Positions 11,671 to 29,349 of a stretch of 29,349 bases of DNA are shown in pieces. Under the pieces are notes generated by a model. The model did no database searches. It saw only the letters and a program-made list of their open reading frames with translations, and was not told the DNA's origin. The stretch is from a virus: IMG/VR virus record IMGVR_UViG_3300017750_000066, positions 1 to 29,349 of that record, one strand, 5' to 3'. Position numbers and translations under genes: made by a program. Each line of letters starts with the position of its first letter. The first letter of the stretch is position 1.

Positions 11671-14317
11671 TGCTCAGTCCGTCTAGTTTCACAGCAATCA
11701 CCCGTATTGGTGGCAGATTAAAGTTAGTGCCTTTAGTCAACCGCACCTGTAACTTTTTAGCCCCCATCTGTTTTACCATTTCCTCAACTGTAGAGTTGTA
11801 GTTTATGTGCCTGTCGTTCAGATGTTTCTTAAACGCCTTGGGCACCATGTAAAACATATCGGTGTCTGTCTCCAGCCTAGCAACAAACATATTACGTGGG
11901 TTTTGTTCGGGTATAATTATAGGTACAGCCCCATCCACAGCCGTGCCACGTTGGTCTTTCGTGCTCTTTATCTTGAGTATGTTTGTCCAATTTTCTGTAG
12001 CAAACTCTGTGACTAGCTGTTGTACGGACGCCCCGCTGTCATCAACATAGGCTTTGACTTTCTGCAGTTCCCGTACGACCCAATCAAACAACGCATTTGT
12101 GTCGTAATGTATCAGACCCATTTGTTTTGCTGCTAACGCCCCTAATATTGTAGCCGAACACCCCGCAGACCAAAATCTGTTCTCTGCCTGTAACCCCGCC
12201 TTACGATCTAGTTTTGCCTTGATCTTGCGGTACAAACGCTCAAGCGCATCTTTGTTATTTATGACGTATTGCACAAACTCTATTGAGAAATGCCCATAGT
12301 TTTGTTTGGTATCTTGAAACAACTGGTCTGTCTTACTCTTGTCTAAGACTGCCTTTATGTTTTTATCGACCCGTATTTCTAACACACGCTGCATCTCGGC
12401 TTTGGGGTCATCTTTTACACGCTGCATTTCTTCGTAGAAACTCATGTTACCTGTAGACAACGCCATAAGCTGCCACGGCTTACCCCTAACGCGCTCCATG
12501 TTACCACCACCTGCCATGCGGTTCTTTTGCTTTCCTTCGGACAACTGATAAGAATACTTTGATACATCGCCCCCTTTCATGTTCGTCATCTCGTCAGAGT
12601 TTAACGGTACGTTGCACATAACCTCTCCACGGTTCATGCGCGAGTTAGGGGTGTCATCTTGCCCCAACGTGAGCGCGTGAGGGTCGCCCCACACACCTGT
12701 ATTTGCGTATATCGCAGTGGTCTTACCTACGCCTGTGCCGCCGTACAAATGTACCCCAAAGCTGTTCAACCCTGTCAACGGCATCAGAATAGAACCAAAA
12801 CCCATACACACGGCGAATTGTTGTAACTCTAACCCCGTGCAGTTAAAAAACTCTAGTATCTCAAGTTGTCGGGCACGGGTGCCTTCGGGTTTAAAGAAAT
12901 CAATCAACCCCGCTGTCTTGCCTGATGGTGGATTGTATTCAACATCCGTTGCAGTGACTAACTGATCGCCCAACACAAAAGACTTCATGTCCTTGTCAGC
13001 CCACCCGAATTGCTGGTGCGCCTCACTTGCTGTAGTCGTACGTTGTAACTCGTTTATCCATGCTGCTGTGTATGCCATAAGTTTATCTACGTCCTTCCCA
13101 AATGAGGTTATGCCTTGCATAGCCATGTTCTTACGAAAGTCTTCCCTAGAAGTAACCGCTGTTAACGGTATTACAAATTCCCGCACCCCGTCACGCGGTA
13201 AGTGTAGAGCAAACGCTACTACCTCTCCAAGCAACACGTCATGTAAGCGTCTCGTCACGTAGAAGTCGTAATGATATATGCACTCCTCGTCAGGATCACC
13301 ATCAGCGTTCTTTGTTCGTATAAACACGCCGCCGTTATGCCCACGAAAATAAGGCTTGGGGAACGTAGGTATAACGTGTTTCCCCGTAGACGTTTCCTCA
13401 GAAGCATCCTCATCTTCGTAAAAGTCTACTTCCTCATGCGCTGCGTAGCGCGACACCAAACCGTCTACCTCGTCCCGATCCAACGGTGGGTCAAACGTAG
13501 TGGCGTTAAAGCCATGCGCCATAGACCGTATGTCTTCCTCGGATAAGTGCCCCTTAGCGCGGAGATGGCCTATATACGAAAGCATGGCAGGGTTTCGGCC
13601 CCCCTCGCCTACTTCGGTAGGTTTCTCATACCCGTCACGTTCAAGTAAGTCGCGCAGAGCCGCCGCCCCTTGCCCTGCCTTTGTAGGAACTGGTATCGAA
13701 TCACCGCCGACTATCTCTGAAAAAGTGTCGTAGTCTACGGTGCGGGGTTCTTCTAAGCCAAAAAATGTCACCCGCTCGGGGGGAACGCTCTTGTAGTTGT
13801 GTGTGTCTGGAACACGTAAAACCCTAGATATATCGGCAGTAACCGCAGGATCAGCGGGAAACTCACTGGCTGCACATAACCTTTTAAGACGCGAGGCAGT
13901 CGTAAGCCAATCGTCTTTGTGTACGGGCGTGTCCAGTATCCAGTATACGTGTACCCCGCTCCCTGAGTTTATTAGTGTAGGGCGCGGCAGTCCATGCTCC
14001 CCACAAAAATCCTTGAGTTGTTTGATGGCTGCAGCCTGTGTAGGAAACTTGTTGTCCCCTTCCCCACAGTCCAAATCCAAGAAAAAAGATTTAAGTGTGT
14101 GTACGTTGTCTGCCTTGCGCGAACCTGCTTCCGTTAAACATGCTAGACTAAAGTAAGCGTCGTAACCGTTTTGGTCAAACTCTCTCGCTGCGTCTAATAC
14201 GTGTTCAGTGGATGTGTAGAATTTTTGTTTGCGACGGTTTGCGGCTGCGTTAGCGGCAAAGACGCAATAGTTCCCCTGTTGACCTAGTACTAGGTCCAAG
14301 AATTGCTTCGTTTTCAT
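11642..14317 (-). CDS. PrimPol-DUF927 DNA primase-helicase, 891 aa
   Basis: Primes and unwinds DNA at the phage replication fork. The N-terminal domain has the three archaeo-eukaryotic primase motifs: FFLDLDCG (metal ligands Asp81, Asp83), SGSGVHVYW (His123), and ISRVLRVPDTHNYK (about 163-176). A linker (about 210-310) leads to a DUF927-like helicase domain with Walker A GGTGVGKTT at 526-534 (Lys532), followed by GVWGDP, and a Walker B-like LNSDEM (Asp575/Glu576). A long helical C-terminus follows. I chose ATG at 14317 because GTGGTGA stands just upstream; a GTG at 14326 in the same frame would add three residues but lacks such a site. The gene begins 14 nt after the terminator of the SSB cassette, so it is expressed by read-through or from an unseen promoter. 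Confidence 0.9.
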   Translation of the reverse strand: MKTKQFLDLVLGQQGNYCVFAANAAANRRKQKFYTSTEHVLDAAREFDQNGYDAYFSLACLTEAGSRKADNVHTLKSFFLDLDCGEGDNKFPTQAAAIKQLKDFCGEHGLPRPTLINSGSGVHVYWILDTPVHKDDWLTTASRLKRLCAASEFPADPAVTADISRVLRVPDTHNYKSVPPERVTFFGLEEPRTVDYDTFSEIVGGDSIPVPTKAGQGAAALRDLLERDGYEKPTEVGEGGRNPAMLSYIGHLRAKGHLSEEDIRSMAHGFNATTFDPPLDRDEVDGLVSRYAAHEEVDFYEDEDASEETSTGKHVIPTFPKPYFRGHNGGVFIRTKNADGDPDEECIYHYDFYVTRRLHDVLLGEVVAFALHLPRDGVREFVIPLTAVTSREDFRKNMAMQGITSFGKDVDKLMAYTAAWINELQRTTTASEAHQQFGWADKDMKSFVLGDQLVTATDVEYNPPSGKTAGLIDFFKPEGTRARQLEILEFFNCTGLELQQFAVCMGFGSILMPLTGLNSFGVHLYGGTGVGKTTAIYANTGVWGDPHALTLGQDDTPNSRMNRGEVMCNVPLNSDEMTNMKGGDVSKYSYQLSEGKQKNRMAGGGNMERVRGKPWQLMALSTGNMSFYEEMQRVKDDPKAEMQRVLEIRVDKNIKAVLDKSKTDQLFQDTKQNYGHFSIEFVQYVINNKDALERLYRKIKAKLDRKAGLQAENRFWSAGCSATILGALAAKQMGLIHYDTNALFDWVVRELQKVKAYVDDSGASVQQLVTEFATENWTNILKIKSTKDQRGTAVDGAVPIIIPEQNPRNMFVARLETDTDMFYMVPKAFKKHLNDRHINYNSTVEEMVKQMGAKKLQVRLTKGTNFNLPPIRVIAVKLDGLSSVPEDTDDI

Positions 14318-17362: not shown

Positions 17363-17380
17363 TTCGGGCAGCTGCCCGAA
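17363..17380. repeat. Start-associated palindrome, copy 1 (before SNF2 gene)
   Basis: Perfect 18-bp palindrome TTCGGGCAGCTGCCCGAA. On the - strand it begins immediately after the TAA stop of the basic protein gene and ends 15 nt before the SNF2 start codon, just upstream of the AGGAGA ribosome binding site. As RNA it could form a 7-bp stem with an AGCU loop. It has no U tract, so it is not a normal terminator. Confidence 0.95.
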
Positions 17381-18548: not shown

Positions 18549-20395
18549 TATTCACACTCCCCGTATGATTTGCCTGTGCCACTTTCACAGGTGATAGGTA
18601 AGCCTTCGGCCCAATCAGGTTTCTGGCTCATGCAATGTTCTACATATACCCGCGCTTCAGCAACATCTGCGTCTGGCACAGCTACAACAATGCTGTCATG
18701 TACTGTTAGCACAACTTTGTATCTCTTGGCAATAAGTATCATTTGGTGGCCTATGATACAACGTGCAACAGCTTGACACACATTCTCGACTACCTTGCCA
18801 CCATATATTTTGTTAAGACCTTTACGGGTCTTATACATATATTCTGTACCGTTCTCGGTGTCGTACGCGCTTACATCGGAGTAGAACATCGGCAGTCCAG
18901 ATGGCAGTGTGATGGACTTAGCTACGCCATCGACCACAAGTACACCTTCTTTACCAAACTGTAACGTATCACCACGGGCCATGTAGTGAACCATGTTATT
19001 TGCATCCGTCCACAGTTGGCTTATGGCACCGTTCTTTTTTCGGTAGATTTGTATAATACGCCGCGCTTCATTCAAGCCCATATCGACGCCCATGCCAGCC
19101 AGTTGTGTCTGAAACTTGACCGCACCCATGCCGTAGCCAGCACCTAAAATTGTAGTCTTACCAACAAACCGCTGCGAACCTTTCACCTCGTCTGATGGCA
19201 CGTTGTATATGCTAGACGCCATGTGCTTATAAACATCGTCTCCGTTGGCGAACGCAGTGGTAAGATCGTCTTGCCCTGCCAGCCATGCAAGCACACGCGC
19301 CTCAATCTGTGAACTATCACAGTCAATCATTGTGTGACCTTCGGGTGCGATAATGCTCCGCTTTAACTTCTTACCGTTGGCTCCACGGCTCGGCAGGTTT
19401 TGCAGGTTAATCTTATCGTCACCACCCCACCTACCTGTATGCGCTGCATAATATCTTACAGGTACGGGAAGATTGCCGCGAGCAGCAATGTCTATAAATC
19501 TTTGTGTGCGAGTTTCTTCAAGAGTAGACTTCGTGCCTATACGTGCTGCAGCCAAAGCCTGAACACGTGCGTCAGGGTCATCTAGTAACTTCTTAAACCC
19601 ATCGTCGTTCTTGGCAAACGCAAAAGTCTCTTTACCAGTGGTGGGGCTAATCTTCATAGGCGGCACAACACCTAGTCCCTTTAACACTTCGGCAAACTTA
19701 GGATTACTCATTAATTCTTTTTTATCTATGTTTGCTTCTCTCAGCAACTCGACCTTACGCGCCTTGACATCTTCTAGGTGCGAACGCAGTAGCTTAACGT
19801 CTAACCCCAACGTAGGTTCGGTATACATACGCAAGGTCAGGTCGATCAGCTTTAATTCTTCGGGGGGAAACCTGCACCCTGTCATTACGCCGCTTGCCAT
19901 AATGTTAAACAGTTGATGCGTTAACTCTACGTCATTTATGCAGTAGTCACCGTACGCGCTTAATTCTTCCTCTGAAAAATCTGCGCGGCGTTTACCTTTT
20001 GCGTCGAGAACTTCTGTCCCTTTAACACCAATATTGTACCTCTGAGATAACGCAGCGAGACTTCCGCCAGCTTCAGTCCCATGTAAGGCACGGGCAATAC
20101 ACAAAGTATCGGTATACATGCGAGGACGAATATCAAAACACCAATTAAGAATGGCACCATCAAACATAGTGTTATGGCAAAGAAGACTAGCCTCTTGCCA
20201 AGCGAAGTTCTGGGATAGGTATCTCTTAATCTGTTTATGCGTTCCACTAGCCCACTCCGTGTCTTCGTTGTTGAGTTTGATGCCCACGCCGATCACCTCA
20301 AAACGAGGGTCACGAACGTAGGCTTCTGTGGTCATCTTACGCAAAGAAAACTCTTGGTCGTAAAATGTTTCAAAGTCTAAAGTTATAAGGTCCAC
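18548..20395 (-). CDS. polA: Family A DNA polymerase with 3'-5' exonuclease, 615 aa
   Basis: Replicative phage polymerase. The exonuclease domain shows Exo I LDFET (Asp7, Glu9), Exo II CHNTMFD (Asn75, Asp79) and Exo III YCINDVE (Tyr151, Asp155). The polymerase domain shows TGRWGG and NLQNLPS (about 320-336), motif A IDCDSSQIEAR (Asp360), motif B RFVGKTTILGAGYG (Arg409, Lys413, Tyr421) and motif C TVHDS (Asp567). There is no 5'-3' exonuclease domain, as usual in phages. Aligned on motif B, the position equal to E. coli Phe762 is Leu417. The start is GTG, overlapping the TAG of the upstream gene (TAGTG). It lies in a coupled operon with the RecB-like nuclease. Confidence 0.96.
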   Translation of the reverse strand: MDLITLDFETFYDQEFSLRKMTTEAYVRDPRFEVIGVGIKLNNEDTEWASGTHKQIKRYLSQNFAWQEASLLCHNTMFDGAILNWCFDIRPRMYTDTLCIARALHGTEAGGSLAALSQRYNIGVKGTEVLDAKGKRRADFSEEELSAYGDYCINDVELTHQLFNIMASGVMTGCRFPPEELKLIDLTLRMYTEPTLGLDVKLLRSHLEDVKARKVELLREANIDKKELMSNPKFAEVLKGLGVVPPMKISPTTGKETFAFAKNDDGFKKLLDDPDARVQALAAARIGTKSTLEETRTQRFIDIAARGNLPVPVRYYAAHTGRWGGDDKINLQNLPSRGANGKKLKRSIIAPEGHTMIDCDSSQIEARVLAWLAGQDDLTTAFANGDDVYKHMASSIYNVPSDEVKGSQRFVGKTTILGAGYGMGAVKFQTQLAGMGVDMGLNEARRIIQIYRKKNGAISQLWTDANNMVHYMARGDTLQFGKEGVLVVDGVAKSITLPSGLPMFYSDVSAYDTENGTEYMYKTRKGLNKIYGGKVVENVCQAVARCIIGHQMILIAKRYKVVLTVHDSIVVAVPDADVAEARVYVEHCMSQKPDWAEGLPITCESGTGKSYGECE

Positions 20396-20871
20396 TATTC
20401 ACGGACCTTTGCAATTAACTCCCCACCACATGCCAGATACCCGCATGCGTCTATCCAGTTATCTATATTATCGGGGTTAGATTTGAGACGCGCAATTTTT
20501 AGCAGGGCCATCATAACTGAAACATCTAGGGGGCTGATGGTGCTTTCGGTGTACTGCGTCCACAACTCCGCTATCTCTCTAAAGTTGTCTTCCATATCAC
20601 CATGTGTAGCTGCGCGATCTACGCTTACGTATTTGTCAGCTTCTGTTAAAATTTCGGAACGTGTCCACGTGTCAGCATACTCCGCATTTCCCCTAGAGTA
20701 TATTTCTGTATTGTACTCGGGTTCAGTCTGCCCCGCGTTAAACTCTTTGCGTACCTTCCACACGTGTGCAGGGGAACACCCAAGCTTGTTGGCTATTTCC
20801 TTGTTAGTTTTTTGAGTGGTCAATAACAGTTTTGCGATCTTATCAGCCTTGCTTTGTTTCTTTTTAGCCAT
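20395..20871 (-). CDS. HTH plus DUF6378-like (possibly MazG-like) protein, 158 aa
   Basis: Two parts are visible. Residues about 8-46 form a helix-turn-helix (TNKEIANKLGCSPAHVWKVR). Residues about 82-156 contain VDRAATHGDMEDNFREIAEL, then SPLDVSVMMALLKIARLKSN and NIDNWIDACGYLACGGEL, which I recognise as the phage DUF6378 family. The all-helical pattern, with acidic residues on successive helices (Glu/Asp in EDNFREI, DNWIDACGY), resembles all-alpha nucleotide pyrophosphohydrolases of the MazG type, so dNTP pool cleaning is possible but unproven. The start has the strong site GGAGAACCACA. The stop overlaps the GTG start of DNA polymerase, so both proteins are made together. Confidence 0.82.
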   Translation of the reverse strand: MAKKKQSKADKIAKLLLTTQKTNKEIANKLGCSPAHVWKVRKEFNAGQTEPEYNTEIYSRGNAEYADTWTRSEILTEADKYVSVDRAATHGDMEDNFREIAELWTQYTESTISPLDVSVMMALLKIARLKSNPDNIDNWIDACGYLACGGELIAKVRE

Positions 20872-20883
20872 TGTGGTTCTCCA

Positions 20884-21072
20884 TTATTTTTTCTTGTCTT
20901 GCTTACTCAAGTGCTCTGCTTCTGCGCTGGCTTGTCCTAGAGCTTCTATAAGAAGTGTGCAGTCGTCAGCACTAATTTCAAACGGTCCTTGTGGGTAGTC
21001 TATCTGTGCCTTCCACTCCCCGTTGTGTTTTACTATGGCAATGGAATTAATAATGTTTTTAACTTTATCCAT
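20884..21072 (-). CDS. Small hypothetical protein, 62 aa
   Basis: An acidic and lysine-rich small protein: MDKVKNIINSIAIVKHNGEW, then KAQIDYPQGPFEISADDCTL and a helix LLIEALGQASAEAEHL ending KQDKKK. The strand-strand-helix pattern suggests a small alpha/beta fold. The start overlaps the stop of the upstream gene by eight bases, with AGGGG just before the ATG. The family is not recognised. It sits in the run of small coupled genes upstream of polymerase, a typical place for host-takeover proteins, but nothing in it proves such a role. Confidence 0.65.
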   Translation of the reverse strand: MDKVKNIINSIAIVKHNGEWKAQIDYPQGPFEISADDCTLLIEALGQASAEAEHLSKQDKKK

Positions 21073-21364
21073 ACCCCTGATTACTCCCCTTAAATTTTAT
21101 CTGATACCGATTTGACTTAGCTATAACCTCTTCCACAGATATACTTGTGATGCGTGAGGCTTCTGCCAGACTAAATCCTTGCTCCGCTAAACGTAGCAAA
21201 CGTTGCGCGGGTTTTGATCTTTCAATCTCCGACATGCGAGGCTTACCGTTGCTTCTAACGTGTTCTTGCACGATCCCATAATTTAAGGAACGCCCCCCGC
21301 ATTTGGCGATCATCTGTTTGTTTTCAATCAAGGCCAACGCCTTCATCTTTTCTAGTTCCGTCAA
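21065..21364 (-). CDS. Small helix-turn-helix-like protein, 99 aa, TTG start
   Basis: Residues about 55-85 (RLAEQGFSLAEASRITSISV, then EEVIAKSNRY) form a helix-turn-helix of the kind seen in small phage regulators. The N-terminal part has ENKQMIAKCGGRSLNYGIVQ, where the basic Gly-Gly-Arg could bind DNA. The start is TTG at 21364, chosen because AGGAGGGGACA stands six bases before it; the first in-frame ATG (21346) has no such site. It overlaps the upstream coiled-coil gene by 41 bases, a large overlap for this cluster. Confidence 0.65.
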   Translation of the reverse strand: MTELEKMKALALIENKQMIAKCGGRSLNYGIVQEHVRSNGKPRMSEIERSKPAQRLLRLAEQGFSLAEASRITSISVEEVIAKSNRYQIKFKGSNQGYG

Positions 21365-21512
21365 TGTCCCCTCCTAGTTTCTTTTTACCTGTAACGTACA
21401 AAACAAATAACTGCTGCGTCATCTGTTCTAATTCTCTCCGCAACTCGCGGTTCTCCGCGCAGACACGTTCGTACTCATGGCGGTTAATCATATTAAAGCT
21501 CCACTTTGTCAT
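21324..21512 (-). CDS. Small coiled-coil protein, 62 aa
   Basis: The product contains a heptad-like helix (YERVCAENRELRRELEQMTQ, continuing QLFVLYVTG) and a short glycine/acidic tail. The ATG overlaps the upstream TGA (ATGA), which supports start and reality; another in-frame ATG seven codons in begins MINRHEYERV. It is likely a dimeric helix, function unknown. The 3' end overlaps the start of the next gene by 41 nt in another frame. Confidence 0.6.
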   Translation of the reverse strand: MTKWSFNMINRHEYERVCAENRELRRELEQMTQQLFVLYVTGKKKLGGDIDGTRKDEGVGLD

Positions 21513-21793
21513 ATCTTCTTATGCTCAAAGACAAACTCGTCGTGAAGAGTTCGGCACGTAAGATACCCGTCTCGTTTAAGTTCCTTTAACATTTGATGTG
21601 CTGCGCCTTCCTTCAACTTCATGCGCTTTGCAAGGTCAGATACCGTCCAAGCCTCGCGGGTCTTCAACACGTCAAACACCACGGCTCGTAAGTCTACTTT
21701 ACCTTTGTAGTTTCGTCCGTTTATGGCCGAGTTAGGCTGCAGGTTTAACCGCATATGTTCGTTCTCTATCGCTGCCATTTGCTTTGGGGTCAT
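21509..21793 (-). CDS. Winged helix-turn-helix protein, 94 aa
   Basis: The C-terminal half is a winged helix: VFDVLKTREAWTVSDLAKRM, then KLKEGAAHQMLKELKRDGYL and a beta wing TCRTLHDEFVFEH, as in MarR/ArsR-like or replication-initiator-type domains. The N-terminal half (MTPKQMAAIENEHMRLNLQ, then NGRNYKGKVDLR) is helical and polar. I chose ATG at 21793 because it overlaps the upstream TGA (ATGA); the longer form from 21808 would add five residues inside the previous gene. It is probably a DNA-binding regulator of phage or host genes. Confidence 0.8.
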   Translation of the reverse strand: MTPKQMAAIENEHMRLNLQPNSAINGRNYKGKVDLRAVVFDVLKTREAWTVSDLAKRMKLKEGAAHQMLKELKRDGYLTCRTLHDEFVFEHKKI

Positions 21794-22089
21794 ATATTCT
21801 TGCCCCACGCACGTAGGTCACTAACGTAACGTGTTAGTTCTTCCCGCGCTGCAAACAAGTTATTGGCTGCGTTCGGCATCGGGTCTTTTGCACGTGCTTT
21901 GTCCCCCCACATATCCACCTGTTGTTTCAAAAACTTCAACTCTGATTGCTGTGCGGGTGTCAGCTTGCTTTGTTCTCTCTCCATAATTTGTACCTTTTGG
22001 TTTCGGATTAACTCTTGCTGCTGTTCCAACTCAAGGAACTGCCTGTCCAAGTCGCTATGCTGTGGGAAGCCTACTATGTTATCATCCAT
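21790..22089 (-). CDS. Glutamine-rich coiled-coil protein, 99 aa
   Basis: The protein starts MDDNIVGFPQHSDLDRQFLE and continues as a long Gln/Glu/Lys-rich helix (LEQQQELIRNQKVQIMEREQ, later LKFLKQQVDMWGDKARAKD), most likely a coiled coil, ending with a second helix. The start ATG at 22089 follows GGAGGTGAAC, an ideal Shine-Dalgarno sequence; the longer TTG-initiated form would begin inside that site and is rejected. The stop overlaps the next start by ATGA. Function unknown; it could oligomerise or scaffold the small HTH protein encoded next. Confidence 0.72.
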   Translation of the reverse strand: MDDNIVGFPQHSDLDRQFLELEQQQELIRNQKVQIMEREQSKLTPAQQSELKFLKQQVDMWGDKARAKDPMPNAANNLFAAREELTRYVSDLRAWGKNI

Positions 22090-22103
22090 GTTCACCTCCA
22101 AAA

Positions 22104-22259
22104 TTAGGTGCCCCGTGCTATCACACAGGGACTAACCGTATCGTGGTTTCTGCCGACAAGATCACAAGGAAGAAAGGTGTGTGCTGCCATCGCTGCCAAC
22201 ACGGAGTTTCCCTGCTCTTGCTGCTGTGGTTTATGCGGAACCATGCCAAACGCGCCCAC
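22104..22259 (-). CDS. Possible small protein, 51 aa
   Basis: This fills the gap between the VRR nuclease and the coiled-coil gene. The frame opens after a TGA just before GTG at 22259 and ends at TAA (22104-22106), 14 nt before the next start. The product begins MGAFGMVPHKPQQQEQGNSV and continues LAAMAAHTFLPCDLVGRNHD, with two Cys and three His. An internal ATG at 22244 would give 46 residues. No good ribosome binding site precedes either start, which lowers confidence. Without it, 189 nt would be empty in a cluster that otherwise has almost no gaps. Confidence 0.42.
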   Translation of the reverse strand: MGAFGMVPHKPQQQEQGNSVLAAMAAHTFLPCDLVGRNHDTVSPCVIARGT

Positions 22260-22278
22260 TCACAGCTTGGGTATCTAA

Positions 22279-22578
22279 TCACAACGCGGGTTTACCGCAG
22301 TCCATAAGTTCATCTCTTACTGTGTGCATATTGCCCTCGTTAACAACTAAATCTAAGCCCCCTGCGTCACGTATCTGTTTGAGGTTTTTGTCTTGCAGGG
22401 GTGTAGGTTTGTTTTTACCAGCCTTACATTCTATCCCAAAGAACACGCCGTGGTAACAGCCTACTACGTCAGGCACACCGCTTTGACCGTAGCCACCTGT
22501 TACAGGGTAAAAGTAGTATGCGCCGAGTTGTTTTAATTGTGCAATCACAACCTTTTTAACTTTTGCTTCGGGTGTCAT
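22279..22578 (-). CDS. VRR-NUC nuclease, 99 aa
   Basis: A minimal PD-(D/E)XK nuclease of the VRR-NUC family, expected to cut branched or flap DNA as a virus-type Holliday-junction-like or replication-repair enzyme. Motifs: an N-terminal helix with Glu4 (TPEAKVKKVVIAQLK), GVPDVVG (Asp37), FFGIECKAGKNKPTPLQ (Glu50, Lys52, Gln62), and LVVNEGN. The length of about 100 aa is the usual stand-alone size. ATG follows CGGAGAACAAC. Its 71-nt upstream gap holds a palindrome copy and a separate hairpin. Confidence 0.9.
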   Translation of the reverse strand: MTPEAKVKKVVIAQLKQLGAYYFYPVTGGYGQSGVPDVVGCYHGVFFGIECKAGKNKPTPLQDKNLKQIRDAGGLDLVVNEGNMHTVRDELMDCGKPAL

Positions 22579-22599
22579 GTTGTTCTCCGTCGATACCAG

Positions 22600-22627
22600 T
22601 GGTGAGGCAGTATTACCCGCCCCACCA
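22600..22627 (-). other. Leader hairpin upstream of the VRR nuclease
   Basis: Arms 22600-22608 and 22619-22627 can pair as nine base pairs in the - strand RNA (one G-U), with a 10-nt loop. It lies between palindrome copy 2 and the ribosome binding site, in the only palindrome leader that is long (52 nt). No U tract follows, so a terminator is unlikely. Confidence 0.35.
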
Positions 22628-22630
22628 GTT

Positions 22631-22648
22631 TTCGGGCAGCTGCCCGAA
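22631..22648. repeat. Start-associated palindrome, copy 2 (before VRR nuclease)
   Basis: Perfect TTCGGGCAGCTGCCCGAA. It directly follows the TAA of the 82-aa gene on the - strand. The VRR start is 52 nt further on, the longest spacing of all copies. Confidence 0.95.
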
Positions 22649-22897
22649 TTAGTATACCCAATAACTATTTGGTCCCATCCGACTACCTACCTTGTCAACC
22701 TCACAAGTTGGTGGTGGCAACGACAGCATGGTTAACACAGACAGCCGTTCTTGAACCCATTGGGGTAGTTCATCCACAGAATTATAATAGCTATATAACT
22801 CTCCGTCAACCCTATCTATGCCTAAAGTTGACACATAAACACCTTTACTGTCTTGTGATATGCGAATGTGATATACAATGTCTTTACAAGCACTCAC
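22649..22897 (-). CDS. Small hypothetical protein, 82 aa
   Basis: The start is GTG overlapping the TGA of the upstream gene (GTGA), so it is translationally coupled. The product shows alternating strands (DIVYHIRISQDSKGVYVST, then LGIDRVDGELYSYYNSVDEL) followed by a short helix WVQERLSVLTML and a Pro/Cys tail ending NSYWVY. A small beta-rich fold is likely. The family is not recognised. The TAA stop is immediately followed by palindrome copy 2. Confidence 0.68.
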   Translation of the reverse strand: MSACKDIVYHIRISQDSKGVYVSTLGIDRVDGELYSYYNSVDELPQWVQERLSVLTMLSLPPPTCEVDKVGSRMGPNSYWVY

Positions 22898-23805
22898 GTG
22901 GTAACATCTTCCTCGTAGAAGTAAAACGTGGTGTCATCGACCTTGTACCCAGCGCCTTCGACAAACTGTCCCGCTTCACACATAGACATGACTGCGACCT
23001 GTCCTTGTAATTCCTCGGGAGCATCGGCAGCGTCCCATGTAGCTACGTGTTCGCTATTAACATCAAGGTAGCTAGTTAACACATCGTCTACACGTGCCAC
23101 GTCCACCCGCTGTTTACCAAACTTTTCGTAGATGCGAACAAACCTCATGGGTAGCTTATCTGTTTGCAACCTATTATTTTCTTTTGCGGCAGACAGCATG
23201 GTTTTTATATCTGCGTTCAACTCAAGATCAGGGAACACGTGTCCTGCCGACAAAAGCCCTGCCAGTGCATCTTGCATACGACCTGTTGCCGTGCCGTAGT
23301 ACTCTAGGCCCAGCTTTTTCAACGCATTTAGATATGCTTGCCTCGCATCCCCACGCAATTCCATAACAGGTTCACGCACCTTTGACTTCAACGCGGCTGC
23401 TATCTCTGCAGATGTGTAGTTGCGAAGTTCTGACTTGGCAGCTTTGAGGGCTATATCCGCATGTTTTGCCATACGCATGTGAAACTGCCTGTTTTCAGTA
23501 TTGTATTTGCAGTTACGTATAGAACGAGAATACACCACATATTTACTAGGGCCGCTCTTGCTGCTCTGGAAATCGCCGTAGCCAATCCAGCCCATAGTCA
23601 TGTACTCACCTTCCATGTAGACCCATGCCGAGTTAGTGTCACGATATAACGTCTTAGCACCACGTATAGACCGCTCTACTTCTTTGCGAAACGTAAGTAT
23701 GCCATGTTCAGCCTTGTGGTCAAAGCCCGTACTACCGGCGTTGTCCTGCACCATTCTATTGTACTTATTCTTTGCGAACCGTACGCTTGTGTGTTTAGTG
23801 GTCAT
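22894..23805 (-). CDS. Uncharacterised phage protein, 303 aa
   Basis: The start overlaps the upstream TAA (TAATG) and the stop overlaps the next GTG. The N-terminal third contains WVYMEGEYMTMGWIGYGDFQ followed by a GP pair (residues 61-86), a motif also seen in the 341-aa neighbour. The middle (about 110-190) is helical with AKHADIALKAAKSELRNY and a possible Gly-Thr-Ala-Thr-Gly loop. The C-terminal part ends in aromatic and acidic residues (TTFYFYEEDVTT). No enzyme motif or membrane helix is visible. It is a middle member of a coupled block; an accessory or host-interaction role is only possible. Confidence 0.8.
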   Translation of the reverse strand: MTTKHTSVRFAKNKYNRMVQDNAGSTGFDHKAEHGILTFRKEVERSIRGAKTLYRDTNSAWVYMEGEYMTMGWIGYGDFQSSKSGPSKYVVYSRSIRNCKYNTENRQFHMRMAKHADIALKAAKSELRNYTSAEIAAALKSKVREPVMELRGDARQAYLNALKKLGLEYYGTATGRMQDALAGLLSAGHVFPDLELNADIKTMLSAAKENNRLQTDKLPMRFVRIYEKFGKQRVDVARVDDVLTSYLDVNSEHVATWDAADAPEELQGQVAVMSMCEAGQFVEGAGYKVDDTTFYFYEEDVTT

Positions 23806-24830
23806 TACTTCTTACCTTTCTTGATTTTTATGAAACCACAGACCTGATTGATCTGGGCGTTATACTGCGCTCTTACCGTGCTTTCACATACGTTCTCATA
23901 CCCCGAGTACCTACGAAGCCCCTGCTTTATAAGAGCCTCATAATGTGTGTTACGCATTATGGTATAACCTAGAGCCACACGCAGCGGGTGTCCTTCGTCT
24001 TTGATAATCTCCTTTGTTAGTTTTGGGTCATTTACAAACTCGTCTTTCGCCCTGTAGACATACGTAGCTAAAAACGCCCCCACGTCTTTGTTTACACGTG
24101 TGGCTTGATCGTAACTGTGATAATCCCATAGCGGGGCCATAGTGAACGTCCATTGTTGGAACTTGTCAAGGTACGGTTTCATCTTATTCTTAGCTACTGT
24201 GTCGATACGTTTCACAGGTGGGGTGGGTTTGGCTTTGCCGCCATCGTCATAACGTATTCTACCATCGGTAATTCCCCTGCGGAACGTCAGCGCAGCGCCA
24301 TCGTCACGTGTAGTGTAGTGTTTATCCCATTTACTACGTTCACCTTTTGGTAGTGCATGGGCTGCTAGCGTATTACTCTTGGCAAGGTAATACCGTTCCC
24401 CTGCACAATGAACGTACTGTTTACCGGAGTCCACGCTAAACCCAAGCCCACGTGGTAGACACCGACCTAAGAACGCGTACCTACTACAATGCGAGAAGTT
24501 CCCTGATCCGTTACGTACGGTGATTGTTTCACTGCCATCTTTGTGTTTGCGCCACACGATAGGGGCCAACTTGATTACTTCGGCTTGGGTCGGACCTTCT
24601 TTCCTAGAGCCGTAGTAGGATAGAAACACGTCATCACCTGTGTAGTACCCGTCCATCAGCACGTAACAGTTGTCACTGATTTTTTTGATGCGTTCGTGTT
24701 TACGCGCCCGATCACCGATGGGTCGTATGTCTTGGTCGCGCGTGTGGCATTTTGATACCAGTGGTTTGACACAATCGTACAGCGTTGCGATTTTATCAAA
24801 ACTGTCTACATTCCATAAATTTACAAGCAT
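23805..24830 (-). CDS. Uncharacterised phage protein, 341 aa
   Basis: I chose ATG at 24830, which follows the CGGAGATAAAA site; a longer in-frame start at 24857 would run through the palindrome leader. Residues 56-80 (YVLMDGYYTGDDVFLSYYG, then a GP pair) resemble a segment of the 303-aa neighbour. The middle part has many aromatic residues and several cysteines (HCSRYAFLGRCLPRG, YVHCAGERYYLA) that could bind metal, then a basic C-terminus ending KIKKGKK. No known domain is recognised. It opens a coupled three-gene unit (341, 303, 82 aa) behind a palindrome copy. Confidence 0.8.
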   Translation of the reverse strand: MLVNLWNVDSFDKIATLYDCVKPLVSKCHTRDQDIRPIGDRARKHERIKKISDNCYVLMDGYYTGDDVFLSYYGSRKEGPTQAEVIKLAPIVWRKHKDGSETITVRNGSGNFSHCSRYAFLGRCLPRGLGFSVDSGKQYVHCAGERYYLAKSNTLAAHALPKGERSKWDKHYTTRDDGAALTFRRGITDGRIRYDDGGKAKPTPPVKRIDTVAKNKMKPYLDKFQQWTFTMAPLWDYHSYDQATRVNKDVGAFLATYVYRAKDEFVNDPKLTKEIIKDEGHPLRVALGYTIMRNTHYEALIKQGLRRYSGYENVCESTVRAQYNAQINQVCGFIKIKKGKK

Positions 24831-24848
24831 TTTTATCTCCGTTTGTGT

Positions 24849-24866
24849 TTCGGGCACCTGCCCGAA
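24849..24866. repeat. Start-associated palindrome, copy 3, variant centre
   Basis: TTCGGGCACCTGCCCGAA on the + strand: both 8-bp arms match the other copies but the central GC is CC, so it is the only copy that is not a perfect palindrome. On the - strand it follows the TAA of the AlpA-like gene directly and lies 18 nt before the 341-aa gene start. Confidence 0.93.
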
Positions 24867-25493
24867 TTAATATGTTTTACCTACGAACCACGCAGCGGCA
24901 ATCGCAACGACCAACACCATCACGTGCGCTAGCGTCTTATTGATGTATACGTGGTAATCATCATGCCCCCCTTTACGATACGTGGAAAGCCTCGGGGTGC
25001 TGTCTTTAGTGTACCGCGCGTCGGCACCCTTGTTCACAGCGATGGGTTTAACCTTCACCGTATTAGGTGCTTTACGCACATAAGCCTTGACTGTAACACC
25101 TTCTGAGGATGTCGTTACGTCAGTTTTACCCGGAAGCGGGTTCTTCTCGCCCGGCTGGTCGTGCTTGCTGTTAAGCTCGTCAATGTATTCAGCAACACTT
25201 TTGCTAATATCGACAACTTGCTCTCGGTCAGGCGCACTTAACCGTGGGTCAGTTTGAATGTCCAACCATGTGCGCCACGTTTCTTGTGGCCCTGTCGAAG
25301 ACCGCAACGGACCCGTACCGTTGGCCTTTATCCACAGGTCAATGTCAGCACGATCCCAGCGGGTGCTGTGACTGTTACCCCATTTCTTCGGCGGGAATAC
25401 ACCCAAGTCAACGTACCGCCATATTGTTGAATCACCCAAACCTGTTAGGGCCATCACTTCTGCCTTTGTCAGCTTGTCTACCTTCTTAGTCAT
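24867..25493 (-). CDS. AlpA-like helix-turn-helix protein with C-terminal membrane helix, 208 aa
   Basis: Residues about 5-60 are an AlpA/excisionase-type HTH: KLTKAEVMALTGLGDSTIWR, then YVDLGVFPPKKWGNSHSTRW and DRADIDLWIKANG. Residues 60-180 are a polar, Pro/Thr/Lys-rich linker. The C-terminus carries one hydrophobic segment (LAHVMVLVVAIAAAWFVG, about residues 187-204), ending in Lys-Thr-Tyr, so the protein could be a membrane-anchored DNA-binding regulator. ATG at 25493 follows AAGGAGAACAAAA; a longer reading from 25553 is in frame but begins inside a small coupled ORF and is rejected. The TAA stop is followed directly by palindrome copy 3. Confidence 0.83.
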   Translation of the reverse strand: MTKKVDKLTKAEVMALTGLGDSTIWRYVDLGVFPPKKWGNSHSTRWDRADIDLWIKANGTGPLRSSTGPQETWRTWLDIQTDPRLSAPDREQVVDISKSVAEYIDELNSKHDQPGEKNPLPGKTDVTTSSEGVTVKAYVRKAPNTVKVKPIAVNKGADARYTKDSTPRLSTYRKGGHDDYHVYINKTLAHVMVLVVAIAAAWFVGKTY

Positions 25494-25572
25494 TTTTGTT
25501 CTCCTTAAATGTTTGTTTGTACTTGTCCCATGCAGCGGTGAACTCCTCTGCATCTGTCTTGTCGTAAGACAC
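25486..25572 (-). CDS. Possible 28-aa peptide coupled to the VWA gene
   Basis: A GTG codon overlaps the TAG of the VWA gene (TAGTG) and the frame stays open to a TAA that lies inside the first codons of the AlpA-like gene (8-nt overlap). The sequence SYDKTDAEEFTAAWDKYKQ followed by TFKENKND is an ordinary charged amphipathic helix and fills the gap exactly. No separate ribosome binding site exists, so it would depend on reinitiation. Confidence 0.42.
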   Translation of the reverse strand: MSYDKTDAEEFTAAWDKYKQTFKENKND

Positions 25573-26807
25573 TACATGTCCTCCGAACCAATATGCACCA
25601 CTTTGCCCACGTCAGGCTTGGCGTTTTTGTTGTCGAGCATGCACCACAGAACAGGATGATCCCATTCACCCCAACCCCCAAAGATGTAGCCATCTGTTAA
25701 GACGATAGAGGCTTGGGGCTTGAGATTGTGCTCCTTCAGATACGCAGGTACGCAGCGCACATCTGTACCACCACCACCCTCGGGCTTGGTAGACTGCGCG
25801 AGATTGCCCATCTCGTCAACCTTGTATGTCTCAACCGCACAGACTTCGGTGTCCCAATACGTCAGGCGTACCAAGTCAGGGTGTACTGTGTCACACACAG
25901 ACTGCACTTCAGTGAGAAACGCTGCCAACTCACGACCACCAATAGAACCAGATGTGTCGATGTGCAGGGCCAACTCGCCCACCTTATCGCTCACACCAGA
26001 GGGCCAATAGTCACCCGACTGTAGGTAGCGTTTGTTAGGGCGGCGATAGGATGAATAGTCCATACCCGCACATGTCTCTTGGATGAAGTCACGCAACACC
26101 TCGCGCCAATCAAGTTGTGGTTCCAACAACTCTTGCATGTCGCGGTTGCCACCGCTTCCACTCTTACCTGCTATGATGTCGCCTTGACGTACAGCCTCGT
26201 CGATCTCACGTTCCAACTCGCGGCGTTCTTCGGCGTCCATTTCTTCCGCGCCTTCCCAATCGTGATCGTCTATCGGTGTACCACCACCATCACCATCCTC
26301 GGGGTTGCCACTGTTGCCGCCGCCTTTCTTTTTCTCATACAGATGCCAGAAGATTTTAGCTGTACCCCAACCACGGAAGTCATAGTTGAGACAGCTACCT
26401 TCGATGAACTCTACCCAACCATCTTGACCGTACTCGTCCATGATCTTGATGTTAATATCATGATCCATAGAGATGTTGGCAAGCTGCGGGTCTATAGCCC
26501 ACAGGTGTTTCCACGTTAGCAGGTGGCGATACATCTTGTGATAGCTTTCGTGGATCACCACGAACCGTAGCTTTGCGTCGTTCAATGGTTCCATGAATGT
26601 CGCGGAATACCATTCGTCTTTACCGTTGGTACACGCGGTCCGAACTTTCATCTTTGATGTATCGCACTTGCCTTGGGTGTGGTCGTACACCACCTCGCGT
26701 TTGCCAATCATGATGATACCAGCGAGTGCATGGCACTTGCCCATCACGTCAACGACTGCTTTGGACAGCCGTTGCTCTGGAGTTAACGTCTTACCTATTG
26801 ATAGCAT
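25572..26807 (-). CDS. VWA-domain protein with putative metallopeptidase domain (DUF2201-like), 411 aa
   Basis: The N-terminal domain holds the zinc-peptidase-like motif HESYH (86-90) and a following MDHDIN helix, as in the putative metallopeptidase half of DUF2201 proteins. A Gly/Asp/Glu-rich linker (about 160-215) precedes a VWA-type domain with a complete MIDAS: IDTSGSIG (Asp284, Ser286, Ser288), GGTD (Thr348) and LTDGY (Asp372). VWA proteins of this kind work with MoxR-type AAA+ ATPases as remodelling pairs (compare RavA-ViaA), and the AAA+ gene is next to it here. ATG has AAAGG upstream. A palindrome copy lies 18 nt before the start. Confidence 0.9.
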   Translation of the reverse strand: MLSIGKTLTPEQRLSKAVVDVMGKCHALAGIIMIGKREVVYDHTQGKCDTSKMKVRTACTNGKDEWYSATFMEPLNDAKLRFVVIHESYHKMYRHLLTWKHLWAIDPQLANISMDHDINIKIMDEYGQDGWVEFIEGSCLNYDFRGWGTAKIFWHLYEKKKGGGNSGNPEDGDGGGTPIDDHDWEGAEEMDAEERRELEREIDEAVRQGDIIAGKSGSGGNRDMQELLEPQLDWREVLRDFIQETCAGMDYSSYRRPNKRYLQSGDYWPSGVSDKVGELALHIDTSGSIGGRELAAFLTEVQSVCDTVHPDLVRLTYWDTEVCAVETYKVDEMGNLAQSTKPEGGGGTDVRCVPAYLKEHNLKPQASIVLTDGYIFGGWGEWDHPVLWCMLDNKNAKPDVGKVVHIGSEDM

Positions 26808-26825
26808 TTTCTTTACCTTTCCATT

Positions 26826-26843
26826 TTCGGGCAGCTGCCCGAA
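26826..26843. repeat. Start-associated palindrome, copy 4 (before VWA gene)
   Basis: Perfect 18-bp palindrome, directly after the TAA of the AAA+ gene and 18 nt before the VWA start codon. The downstream leader differs from that of copies 5 and 6, so only the palindrome itself is conserved here. Confidence 0.95.
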
Positions 26844-27944
26844 TTACTTTTTGTCAGCGGCGAACATGTAGTTGTTGTCCATCGCCCACTGTGTGAATTT
26901 CTTGTTAGTCATGATAAGAGACTGCTTGCTGTACTTCGGCGCACGTACGCCATTGGCAAACATGCCTTGCGCCTCGGTGTCCAACCGCTGCATGTACGTC
27001 ATCCATGCGTCCACCCAATCACGTTCGATACTGGCAAGTGTACGGAACACGACCATACAGGTCGCAGACGCAGACGTTGGCACTATCGCGTTGTCAGGGT
27101 CTTTCTTGATACTCTCGGTTGTCGGCAGTTGACTTGCCAGCTTGACATACGCCATCAAGTCCAAGCCACCACGTGTGCCGATAGCACCCATAAGTGCGGT
27201 CGTTAGTGTCTGGTCATCTATCAGGTGACGTGTTTTGAGGATGTCCGAACCCAGCTTACCGGAGCGAGGGGTAAACACTGCGTCTTGTGTGGGGCGGCGT
27301 GGGTGATGGATGTACGGGTTATCGTCAGGGTCTTTCACCTCGTCGTACGTCTGCAACACTTGCGGGTTGTCTTTGACCCAGCCCAGCATTACGGGGTCCA
27401 TACCATTGTTCAAGCCCCAGCCTAAATATTCCTCGACTGTAGGTTTACGTGTCTGGACAACGACGATGGCATTACGTTGGTGTGCGGGTAGCGCGTCACC
27501 TAGACCCTCGCCTGATTTGTTAGTCGTGCCATAGATGATAGAACCTTCGGGCAGTGTGATGTTACCGACCTTACGTTCTAACATGATACGACGAACACCC
27601 TTTTGCACAGGCTGTGGGGCTTTGAAGAACTCGTCAAAGTTAATGATAACCTTCACGCCAAGGTGTGCGCCCAATTCTGCATTAGGTACGAACTCCACAT
27701 AGTCAGAGATCATGTTCTCGACTTTCTTCATGAATTTTGGTGCAGACAAGTCTTGGATGTCTTTGTTGGTACAATCAAATTCGATGTACTTGTGGTCAGG
27801 TAACGCAGCTTCAAGGTTAGCTTTGATGCCCGAGGTTTTGCCTGTACCCATGTAACCTTGGGCAATGACGGTCAGGTTATGGCCCACTGCTTTGATAAGG
27901 TCAGCGGTCTGGTCGATAGACAGGCTGTAAGATGATAGTGTCAT
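26844..27944 (-). CDS. MoxR-type AAA+ ATPase, 366 aa
   Basis: ATP-driven remodelling enzyme, expected to partner the VWA protein encoded next. Motifs: Walker A GYMGTGKTS (30-38, Lys36), Walker B VIINFDEF (Asp104, Glu105), sensor 1 IIYGTTNKS (Asn142), then GDALPAHQRNAIVV with an arginine near the finger position, and a helical C-terminal lid. The wide spacing and PVQKGVRR segment after Walker B are MoxR/CobS-like. I chose ATG at 27944 after CGGAGAACGAAC; a longer in-frame start at 28010 would translate the palindrome and is rejected. The gene is third in a unit with the 298-aa protein and the 31-aa membrane peptide. Confidence 0.9.
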   Translation of the reverse strand: MTLSSYSLSIDQTADLIKAVGHNLTVIAQGYMGTGKTSGIKANLEAALPDHKYIEFDCTNKDIQDLSAPKFMKKVENMISDYVEFVPNAELGAHLGVKVIINFDEFFKAPQPVQKGVRRIMLERKVGNITLPEGSIIYGTTNKSGEGLGDALPAHQRNAIVVVQTRKPTVEEYLGWGLNNGMDPVMLGWVKDNPQVLQTYDEVKDPDDNPYIHHPRRPTQDAVFTPRSGKLGSDILKTRHLIDDQTLTTALMGAIGTRGGLDLMAYVKLASQLPTTESIKKDPDNAIVPTSASATCMVVFRTLASIERDWVDAWMTYMQRLDTEAQGMFANGVRAPKYSKQSLIMTNKKFTQWAMDNNYMFAADKK

Positions 27945-27963
27945 GTTCGTTCTCCGTTTGTGT

Positions 27964-27981
27964 TTCGGGCAGCTGCCCGAA
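27964..27981. repeat. Start-associated palindrome, copy 5 (before AAA+ gene)
   Basis: Perfect 18-bp palindrome, 3 nt after the TAA of the 31-aa gene and 19 nt before the AAA+ start. The following ACACAAACGGAGAACGAAC leader is nearly identical to that of copy 6. Confidence 0.95.
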
Positions 27982-27984
27982 TGG

Positions 27985-28080
27985 TTAAAAAGTATACTGG
28001 CCGAAACCATGTGATAAGAAGATAAGAGTGATGAAGAGGGCCATAAGCACCAGCCCCCCGCGAATGTTTCCGTTGCCCAT
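27985..28080 (-). CDS. 31-aa single-span membrane peptide
   Basis: The ATG overlaps the TGA of the 298-aa gene by one base (TGATG) and the frame ends at TAA just before palindrome copy 5, filling the gap exactly. The product has a short N-terminus MGNGNIRGG, one hydrophobic helix (LVLMALFITLIFLSHGFG) and the tail QYTF. The arginine before the helix favours an N-in, C-out orientation. Being coupled to a AAA+/VWA module it may be a membrane anchor or effector; a small holin-like or pinholin-type protein is another possibility. Function unproven. Confidence 0.65.
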   Translation of the reverse strand: MGNGNIRGGLVLMALFITLIFLSHGFGQYTF

Positions 28081-28976
28081 CAGAAGTCCAGACTTGGCAA
28101 CGCGGCGATGGCAGCGGTCAATTCTTTCTGCTTGTCCTCGCGTAGGGAAGGGCTGTTCTTTACCTGACCAAGTGTAAGACCGTGAAATGTCTGTTCAAGA
28201 CGTTGGCGCATTGCTTCCATCTGGCTATCACCTGTCACGTTACACGTACCCAGCATGTCAGTCAGCTCGAGCGCACGATCAAACACTGTGTCAAACATCT
28301 TATTGCCTTTGCCTTCCTCGTTCACATCGAACTGTCGGGCAAGTGTGGTGAGGTTATCGTGTAGCTTTTGCCATATGTCGTTCATGGCAGTGTTGACGGC
28401 AGACGTATAGTGCTGCTCATACTGTGTTTGGAGGTCAACCATAGCTTCGTTGCCCACGTCGATACGAAAATCACCGCTGTCTGGCAGGGGGACATAGCTT
28501 AGGCGAAACCCGAACTTGCTTTCAAGTGCTTCACGTGTCGGGTACTCGTCACCGTTCCACATCGCACCCAGCTTCGCTTGCGCGTCCATTATCTTCCATT
28601 CGTACACGGTCAGGAACTCGTCAACCAAACGTGCGAACTCGTTTTGTAGATCGGTCATGACCTCATGGTATCTGAAATACTGCGCTGTCGGAAGCAAACG
28701 CGACCCGTTGTCAGACCACGGCATAGTCATGGAATAGTGAATGTTACGGGTGTTAGCTGCAAACTTTTGCACAGCGCGTAATTCCTCGCAGTCACCTAGT
28801 AAGTTCTTAGACACAGACGCAACGCCTTTGTCGGCGTAGTTTGCGTCGGTCACTTCGGCAGATGCCTTGTGATCTTTCTTACGCGCTGTCCAGACAGACG
28901 CGTTGAAGTCAACGGTCATGGCCGCGCTGCTGATAGATGGCGCGGTAGCCGTTGGGGTTTGGAATAATTGGTTCAT
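28080..28976 (-). CDS. Helical partner protein of the AAA+/VWA module (possibly DUF3150-like), 298 aa
   Basis: I chose ATG at 28976 after CGGAGAACGATT; a longer frame from 29063 would read through the palindrome. The N-terminal 40 residues are Ala/Ser/Thr-rich. Then come long helices (LQNEFARLVDEFLTVYEWKI, later LHDNLTTLARQFDVNEEG) around a short segment with YVPLPDSGDFRIDV. From memory the pattern and the neighbourhood (MoxR ATPase and VWA protein immediately downstream) fit the DUF3150 group of phage proteins; this was not checked. It is the first gene after the promoter at 29054-29082. It is likely a substrate or adaptor of the ATPase complex, which is inference. Confidence 0.78.
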   Translation of the reverse strand: MNQLFQTPTATAPSISSAAMTVDFNASVWTARKKDHKASAEVTDANYADKGVASVSKNLLGDCEELRAVQKFAANTRNIHYSMTMPWSDNGSRLLPTAQYFRYHEVMTDLQNEFARLVDEFLTVYEWKIMDAQAKLGAMWNGDEYPTREALESKFGFRLSYVPLPDSGDFRIDVGNEAMVDLQTQYEQHYTSAVNTAMNDIWQKLHDNLTTLARQFDVNEEGKGNKMFDTVFDRALELTDMLGTCNVTGDSQMEAMRQRLEQTFHGLTLGQVKNSPSLREDKQKELTAAIAALPSLDF

Positions 28977-28995
28977 AATCGTTCTCCGTTTGTAT

Positions 28996-29013
28996 TTCGG
29001 GCAGCTGCCCGAA
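28996..29013. repeat. Start-associated palindrome, copy 6 (before 298-aa gene)
   Basis: Perfect 18-bp palindrome in the 5' untranslated region between the promoter and the 298-aa gene, 19 nt before its start. The transcript would carry it as a 5' hairpin about 35 nt from its start. Confidence 0.95.
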
Positions 29014-29046
29014 AAGGTTAGTTGAGGTTGGTAGTCTATCGTGTCG

Positions 29047-29068
29047 TACCTATACAATATCATAGGTA
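29047..29068. promoter_or_regulatory. Operator-like inverted repeat over the -10 box
   Basis: TACCTAT (29047-29053) and ATAGGTA (29062-29068) are a perfect 7-bp inverted repeat with an 8-bp spacer. The spacer holds exactly the -10 hexamer of the leftward promoter, so a dimeric repressor bound here would block RNA polymerase. Confidence 0.55.
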
Positions 29069-29082
29069 GCGAGGTATGTCAA
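29054..29082 (-). promoter_or_regulatory. Extended -10 sigma70-type promoter for the AAA+/VWA module
   Basis: On the - strand a consensus -35 TTGACA (29082-29077) is followed after exactly 17 bp by TATTGT (29059-29054), with TGA directly before it giving an extended -10 (TGn). It lies in a 92-nt gap between the 49-aa gene and the 298-aa gene, about 75 nt before the latter's start codon. Confidence 0.75.
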
Positions 29083-29105
29083 GTAATTCACTTTGGTGGT
29101 GTTCA

Positions 29106-29255
29106 TTACTTTTTGATTTGTTTGGCTAATATAGCCTTTACCACTTTCACTTTCATGGGTGGGTCGAACACGCGGGGCTTCACGATTTCCACTGCGTACT
29201 GCATCTTGGACTTGTCCACCTTGGGCAGACATTTGCCTTTACCGACTAATGCCAT
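29106..29255 (-). CDS. Small basic protein, 49 aa
   Basis: ATG at 29255 follows GGATGGAGGTAGCA, a strong Shine-Dalgarno sequence, and the frame ends at TAA 29106-29108. The product is Lys/Val-rich: MALVGKGKCLPKVDKSKMQY, AVEIVKPRVFDPPM, KVKVVKAILAKQIKK. Strand-like alternation and the basic tail suggest nucleic-acid or membrane-surface binding, but no family is recognised. A longer overlapping frame at 29050-29232 is out of phase and has no ribosome binding site. It precedes the AAA+/VWA unit and is preceded by palindrome copy 7. Confidence 0.7.
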   Translation of the reverse strand: MALVGKGKCLPKVDKSKMQYAVEIVKPRVFDPPMKVKVVKAILAKQIKK

Positions 29256-29349
29256 TGCTACCTCCATCCTTTCGGGCAGCTGCCCGAAAATCTTCCATGA
29301 CGTTTGCGGCTTCTTTTGGTTGGCTGGATTTCTCCCATGTGTCCTTCCA
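29239..29349 (-). CDS. Possible 3' end of an upstream gene, truncated by the window
   Basis: One frame is open from the right edge to TAA at 29239-29241 and reads WKDTWEKSSQPKEAANVMED, then FRAAARKDGGSNGISR. It looks protein-like, but it translates straight through palindrome copy 7 and would overlap the 49-aa gene by 17 nt. The other two frames are also open near the edge, so the assignment is uncertain. Confidence 0.3.
   Translation of the reverse strand, partial: WKDTWEKSSQPKEAANVMEDFRAAARKDGGSNGISR
29271..29288. repeat. Start-associated palindrome, copy 7 (before 49-aa gene)
   Basis: Perfect 18-bp palindrome, 15 nt before the start of the 49-aa gene and just upstream of its GGATGGAGG site. 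Unlike four other copies, no stop codon directly precedes it. Confidence 0.95.

Follow-up and report, generated by a model that had tools for sequence, protein, structure and literature searches.

The P2 promoter and its operon

The stretch of DNA analysed here, hereafter the window, is a 29,349-bp IMG/VR fragment of an uncultured bacterial virus. Towards its end it carries a promoter sequence, P2, on the minus strand, a strand left unstated in an earlier note on this DNA (Table 1). The -35 hexamer matches the consensus in 6/6 positions and the -10 hexamer in 4/6, the two being separated by a 17-bp spacer, in agreement with what characterises sigma70-type (RpoD) promoters, namely a -35 near TTGACA, a spacer of 16-18 bp and a -10 near TATAAT. 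Equally, the TG one base 5' of the -10 conforms to an extended -10, with TRTG kept in relatives. The strong promoter described earlier, TTGACA, 17 bp and TG-A-TATTGT, is thus present as described, and as a family motif it lies far above chance, with a matrix score of 68 bits for P2 against -5 for the best shuffle, the training set of the matrix including P2 itself. From these elements we infer the activity of P2 and its start site.

Table 1. Coordinates of P2, the operon downstream of it and the leader hairpins in the window
Feature	Position	Strand	Remark
49-aa ORF directly 5' of P2	29106..29255	-	of the genomes compared, G002 has a match
CAC box 5' of P2 (ACACCACC)	29095..29102	-	in relatives, CAC recurs at -16, -26 and -36 from the -35 hexamer
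-35 hexamer TTGACA of P2	29077..29082	-	invariant or nearly so in relatives
Upstream dyad arm TACCTAT	29062..29068	-	family element TACYTRTG strongly conserved, overlaps the extended -10
Extended -10 TG-A-TATTGT of P2	29054..29062 (hexamer 29054-29059, TG 29061-29062)	-	TRTG and TANNNT kept in the family
Downstream dyad arm ATAGGTA (discriminator / start-site region)	29047..29053	-	weakly conserved in the family
Predicted P2 transcription start	29046..29048	-	placed by spacing to the -10 only
P2 leader hairpin TTTCGGGC-AGCT-GCCCGAAA	28995..29014	-	between P2 and the ribosome site
P2 leader RBS GGAG of first gene	28984..28987	-	direct reading
DUF3150-like protein, 298 aa, first gene of transcript	28080..28976	-	borderline Pfam match, just under cut-off
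AAA+ type ATPase (PHROG 1297), 366 aa	26844..27944	-	
VWA / putative metallopeptidase protein (DUF2201), 411 aa	25572..26807	-	
Window leader hairpins	17363-17380, 22631-22648, 24849-24866, 26826-26843, 27964-27981, 28995-29014, 29270-29289		

The predicted transcript from about 29047 would begin with a 70-nt leader followed by the DUF3150-like gene (ATG at 28976), after which come the genes for the AAA+ ATPase, the VWA/DUF2201 protein and an AlpA-like HTH protein and, further on, replication genes. Control of the AAA+/VWA module by this promoter, as claimed in the earlier note, agrees with this gene order, P2 reading into the module with the DUF3150 gene in first place.

Elsewhere in the window, a second strong promoter-like site, TTGACG-17-TATAAT (11/12), lies on the minus strand at 22781-22809 inside a small ORF, and a 16-bp perfect palindrome, GACCTAGTACTAGGTC, is found at 14281-14296 near the start of a primase/helicase-like gene.

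A promoter pair in an uncultured phage family

Homologues of the first gene are encoded by 80 viral contigs, most of which have the same promoter in the upstream DNA, and the promoter is still found ahead of this gene in viral contigs whose protein identity has dropped to about 50%. In dozens of viral-metagenome relatives P2 stands ahead of the same DUF3150 / AAA+ / VWA operon; relatives with no recognisable P2 exist and are mostly of the TTTAGGG leader-hairpin type described below. Distantly, DUF3150 is present in cyanophages such as MinM2 (25%), a search of GenBank phages with the promoter-region DNA gave no match, and no relatives were found in cellular genome contigs. When a broad promoter pattern was run over viral contigs, unrelated chance matches made up most of those among the matches listed.

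With a promoter matrix derived from 40 distinct examples, just two high-scoring sites, P1 and P2, were found in every one of six larger phage records, at 52-74 bits with shuffles below zero. The two sites are 450-1,600 bp apart in these relatives, with small genes between them, including one for a weakly DksA-like zinc-ribbon protein. As the window record is only a fragment, carrying P2, the P1 of this phage would lie beyond the window end. Upstream of P1, an origin-like region was observed in L083 (5270-5620) and in the corresponding position of L086, L090, L092, L095 and L097, in which iterons GTTCCAA (or GTACCAC) stand on one side of AT-rich TATATATA and inverted copies on the other, the iteron sequence varying between phages.

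The elements conserved in the family comprise TTGACA, a 17-bp spacer ending in TACYTRTG (with the TRTG-type extended -10), TANNNT, and CAC boxes phased by 10 bp; the consensus of 30 distinct P2 accordingly reads CAC boxes, TTGACA, a spacer ending in TACtTgTG, and TAtAnT. CAC starts at -36, -26 and -16 from the -35 hexamer in 14/30, 19/30 and 24/30 of these promoters, respectively, with only the proximal box present in the P2 of the window. In bits per column, the same 30 promoters give 1.93 for the -35, 1.66 for the spacer TAC, 1.62 for TRTG, 1.09 for the -10 and 0.83 for the downstream dyad arm, so that TAC is conserved like TRTG and more than the -10.

In the region 20000-29349, promoter-like sites occur at background number (9 found versus 10.4 expected), which would be in line with P2 as a functionless chance match to sigma70 sequences; yet many phages strongly conserve the site in this position, and each larger record has a second copy, so that such a coincidence is scarcely credible. 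Rather, we regard P2, one of a conserved pair, as a probable strong early promoter, and give this reading, together with that of its dyad below, a probability of roughly 0.7. A host sigma70-type RNA polymerase would read it by means of the consensus -35, the 17-bp spacer and the TRTG-type extended -10, and P2, which follows the related early promoter P1, would drive the minus-strand DUF3150 - AAA+ - VWA operon. That a further factor also makes contact is hinted at by the helical phasing of the CAC boxes and by the spacer TAC. A stricter version, in which P1 and P2 depend on an activator and a host or phage factor on the CAC boxes and the spacer TAC recruits polymerase, is compatible with the preferred reading and adds a step to it. 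Although the CAC phasing at -16/-26/-36 and the conservation of TAC exceed known sigma70 contacts, a consensus -35 together with an extended -10 is normally sufficient without an activator and the window P2 has the proximal CAC box only, and we consider such dependence rather unlikely. Across this family of uncultured phages, the P1/P2 pair provides a marker of early transcription.

The inverted repeat around the -10 box

The perfect 7-bp inverted repeat to which the earlier note drew attention exists, as TACCTAT-N8-ATAGGTA with an 8-bp gap (29068-29047, minus strand). Its placement needs slight correction, as it had been said to bracket exactly the -10: the downstream arm does abut the hexamer, whereas the upstream arm, which takes in the T of the TG, ends 2 bp short of the hexamer. 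Perfect 7-bp inverted repeats with loops of 3-12 bp occur often in the window (30 observed versus 20 +- 6 expected). That such a 7-bp dyad should fall within 5 nt of a particular -10 has a low chance of about 0.001 per promoter. Sought elsewhere, the dyad has a single copy in the window, and the P1 of the closest relative, L001, reaches just 4/7 arm pairs.

For the distribution of the dyad, 48 aligned P2 promoters were placed on the DUF3150 protein tree. At least 6/7 arm pairs are present in 10 of the 48 and fewer in the other 38, with about six changes on the tree; relatives with the promoter but without the dyad, which the earlier note had named in advance as speaking against its proposal, are therefore the majority. 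The arms of P1 pair at a mean of 2.7/7, with no excess over shuffles, and those of P2 at 4.1 versus 3.8 shuffled (of 7; 27 distinct promoters; p 0.008 without kinship correction), the excess in the first 17 promoters having a p of 0.06. Covariation of the arms on the tree involves few independent pairs, and the sister pair L002/L003 shares the downstream arm ATAGGTA but differs in the upstream arm (TACCTAT versus TACTTGT).

The HTH proteins that had been put forward as ligands (82 aa, AlpA-like, winged HTH) have distributions none of which tracks the dyad. Among the genomes compared, the AlpA-like protein is confined to the window, being missing from G002 despite the same dyad there; the winged HTH protein occurs in the window and G002 and not in G007, which has the dyad; and the 82-aa protein is found in nearly all genomes, dyad or not, including G003, G008 and G009, whose P2 lacks it. 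Lysogeny-type repression was considered and rejected: searches of eight relatives, the records of which are possibly incomplete, revealed neither integrase (PF00589) nor resolvase (PF00239), and no CI-like / HTH_3 repressor (PF01381) over the cut-off, so that genes of a temperate lifestyle were not found in these records. Repressors may nevertheless be encoded by lytic phages.

A true operator would involve a dimeric phage repressor which, on TACCTAT-N8-ATAGGTA, covers the -10 and the start and shuts P2 after early infection. Perfect 7-bp arms at an ideal place argue for it, as do the perfect dyad of the window clade and of phages L014, L023, L024 and L042, the TACCTATGGTATACTATAGGTA carried by L014 and L015, which is palindromic at 20/22 positions, and the occurrence of TACCTATGNTANNNTATAGGTA in 14 viral-contig stretches, most of them from this phage family. 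This proposal is opposed by the absence of the dyad from 38/48 P2 and most P1, by its single copy in the window, and by the lack of both an HTH protein that tracks it and lysogeny genes among those sought, and we judge it improbable. The dyad is probably not a general off-switch, and the suggestion that it makes the promoter repressible is not upheld, as 38 of the 48 P2 keep the promoter without it.

In the preferred reading, a strong host-sigma70 early promoter paired with P1 and carrying a dyad that is at most accessory, the dyad would be a by-product that arises where the conserved upstream element meets a downstream sequence specific to the clade, and it may have been recruited as a weak operator. 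Conservation of the upstream element in the family is owed largely to the extended -10 that lies inside it, and the dyad is perfect in the window phage because its upstream arm matches the downstream one through the C at position 17 and the A at position 19 from the -35 start. Since the family conserves well only the upstream element, the dyad would be at most a clade-level operator. Such a role is possible in some clades, considering the weak excess of P2 arm pairing and the very palindromic version in L014/L015. Points against the preferred reading are the -10 with just 4/6 matches, the low chance of a perfect dyad by a -10, the recurrence of the dyad in more than one clade, the slight excess of P2 arm pairing and the relatives in which P2 is not recognisable. 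Conceptually, the family shows that even a perfect inverted repeat across a -10 box is not necessarily an operator kept by selection in relatives.

Leader hairpins and comparison with known systems

The hairpin in the P2 leader is stable on folding (-15.5 kcal/mol, z -3.3) and is one of seven near-identical hairpins in the window (stem TTCGGGC, 7 bp; 4-nt loop), all ahead of early genes and most of them 14-19 nt 5' of the start codon. In relatives, the same rule applied to both strands finds 164 hairpins of this layout on the sense strand versus 1 on the other. Nearly all copies in a phage share one stem type, TTCGGGC, TTTAGGG, GTTAGGG, GTTAGTG, TGTATAC or GGTAGTC. The stem is strict, and the loop has 4 nt in 105/107 exact cases, with variable middle bases. 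Stem type changes 11 times on the DUF3150 tree, on which the TTCGGGC-type rows are not one clade (AU p 2e-8). Rfam gave no family in the window, and no closely similar system of hairpins in early leaders turned up in the literature searched; in the relative G002, Rfam matched Mu-gpT-DE RNA with 56 bits (L083 15279-15329).

A further observation concerns the nuclease-like gene at 22578, the leader of which (window 22579-22630, minus strand) has ACTGGTATC directly before GGAG. Relatives have, in the noncoding DNA 5' of P1, a tandem array of two or three units, most of which consist of a hairpin plus GATACCAGT (L083 5600-5930), and GATACCAGT and ACTGGTATC are perfectly complementary over 9 nt. 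The tandem units may possibly constitute a trans-acting small RNA.

On whole-genome comparison, two genes follow hairpin type, a ~200-aa early gene and the gene for a giant virion protein, whereas core genes do not; identity of the giant protein is 52-61% within the TTCGGGC type versus 26-34% between types. On the contigs where the ~200-aa gene was recognisable, allele and hairpin type agree without exception, with 23 C alleles accompanying TTCGGGC and 31 T or X alleles the other stems, and all 11 further contigs found by the ~200-aa protein alone have the TTCGGGC hairpin. A sign test on the switching of hairpin type and allele is not significant (p 0.125), falling short since there are just four independent well-supported switches. 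Hairpins near the ~200-aa gene could simply travel with the gene, an explanation that extends less easily to distant ones. The ~200-aa protein has an all-helical predicted model (pLDDT 83, pTM 0.62), with no significant match to its fold in the PDB and a viral library. The giant polyvalent protein, of 2346 aa (window 4321-11361), occurs as two alleles and has a zincin motif HEMVH, LPD39 and a DarB-like C-terminus. An N4-like virion polymerase reading the leader hairpins was also considered, the giant protein giving no RNA polymerase match at the sequence level in Pfam, PHROGs or PDB searches; a search for a T7-type polymerase gave no match, nor did its positive control give a signal.

Tentatively, and with somewhat less than even odds, the stem, shared by most early genes of a phage directly 5' of their ribosome sites, may be a phage-specific code that is read by the type-matched ~200-aa protein or giant injected protein, both of which switch together with it, and that controls early expression or excludes rivals. 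The co-switching of hairpins and proteins is a lead, separate from the promoter finding; if true, leader hairpins read by a matching phage factor would represent a new kind of early-gene code.

Among known systems, lambda-like operators overlap early promoters as the P2 dyad lies over the -10 and start region, but this dyad is not conserved with its promoter, and neither a cognate repressor nor lysogeny genes were found in relatives. The stoperators of cluster A mycobacteriophages are reported to be asymmetric repressor sites in many dispersed copies whose specificity differs between phages (PMC9283540, PMC6550527). With these the leader hairpins share the many dispersed copies per genome and the differing specificity between phages, but are symmetric and located just 5' of early-gene ribosome sites, in phages in which no repressor or integrase was found. 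The hairpin promoters of the N4 virion RNA polymerase are similar in being short hairpins just 5' of early genes, with a giant virion protein that here co-segregates with hairpin type, and different in that the giant protein gives no RNA polymerase signal by sequence and a sigma70 promoter stands ahead of the operon. In lytic phages, tandem early sigma70 promoters such as those of T7 have consensus-like hexamers, are present in several copies ahead of early operons and are used by host polymerase. P1 and P2 resemble them in their consensus-like hexamers, multiple copies and position ahead of an early operon, and presumably in host-polymerase use; unlike the T7 early promoters, the predicted promoters P1 and P2 combine a TRTG-type extended -10 with the spacer TAC and phased CAC boxes.
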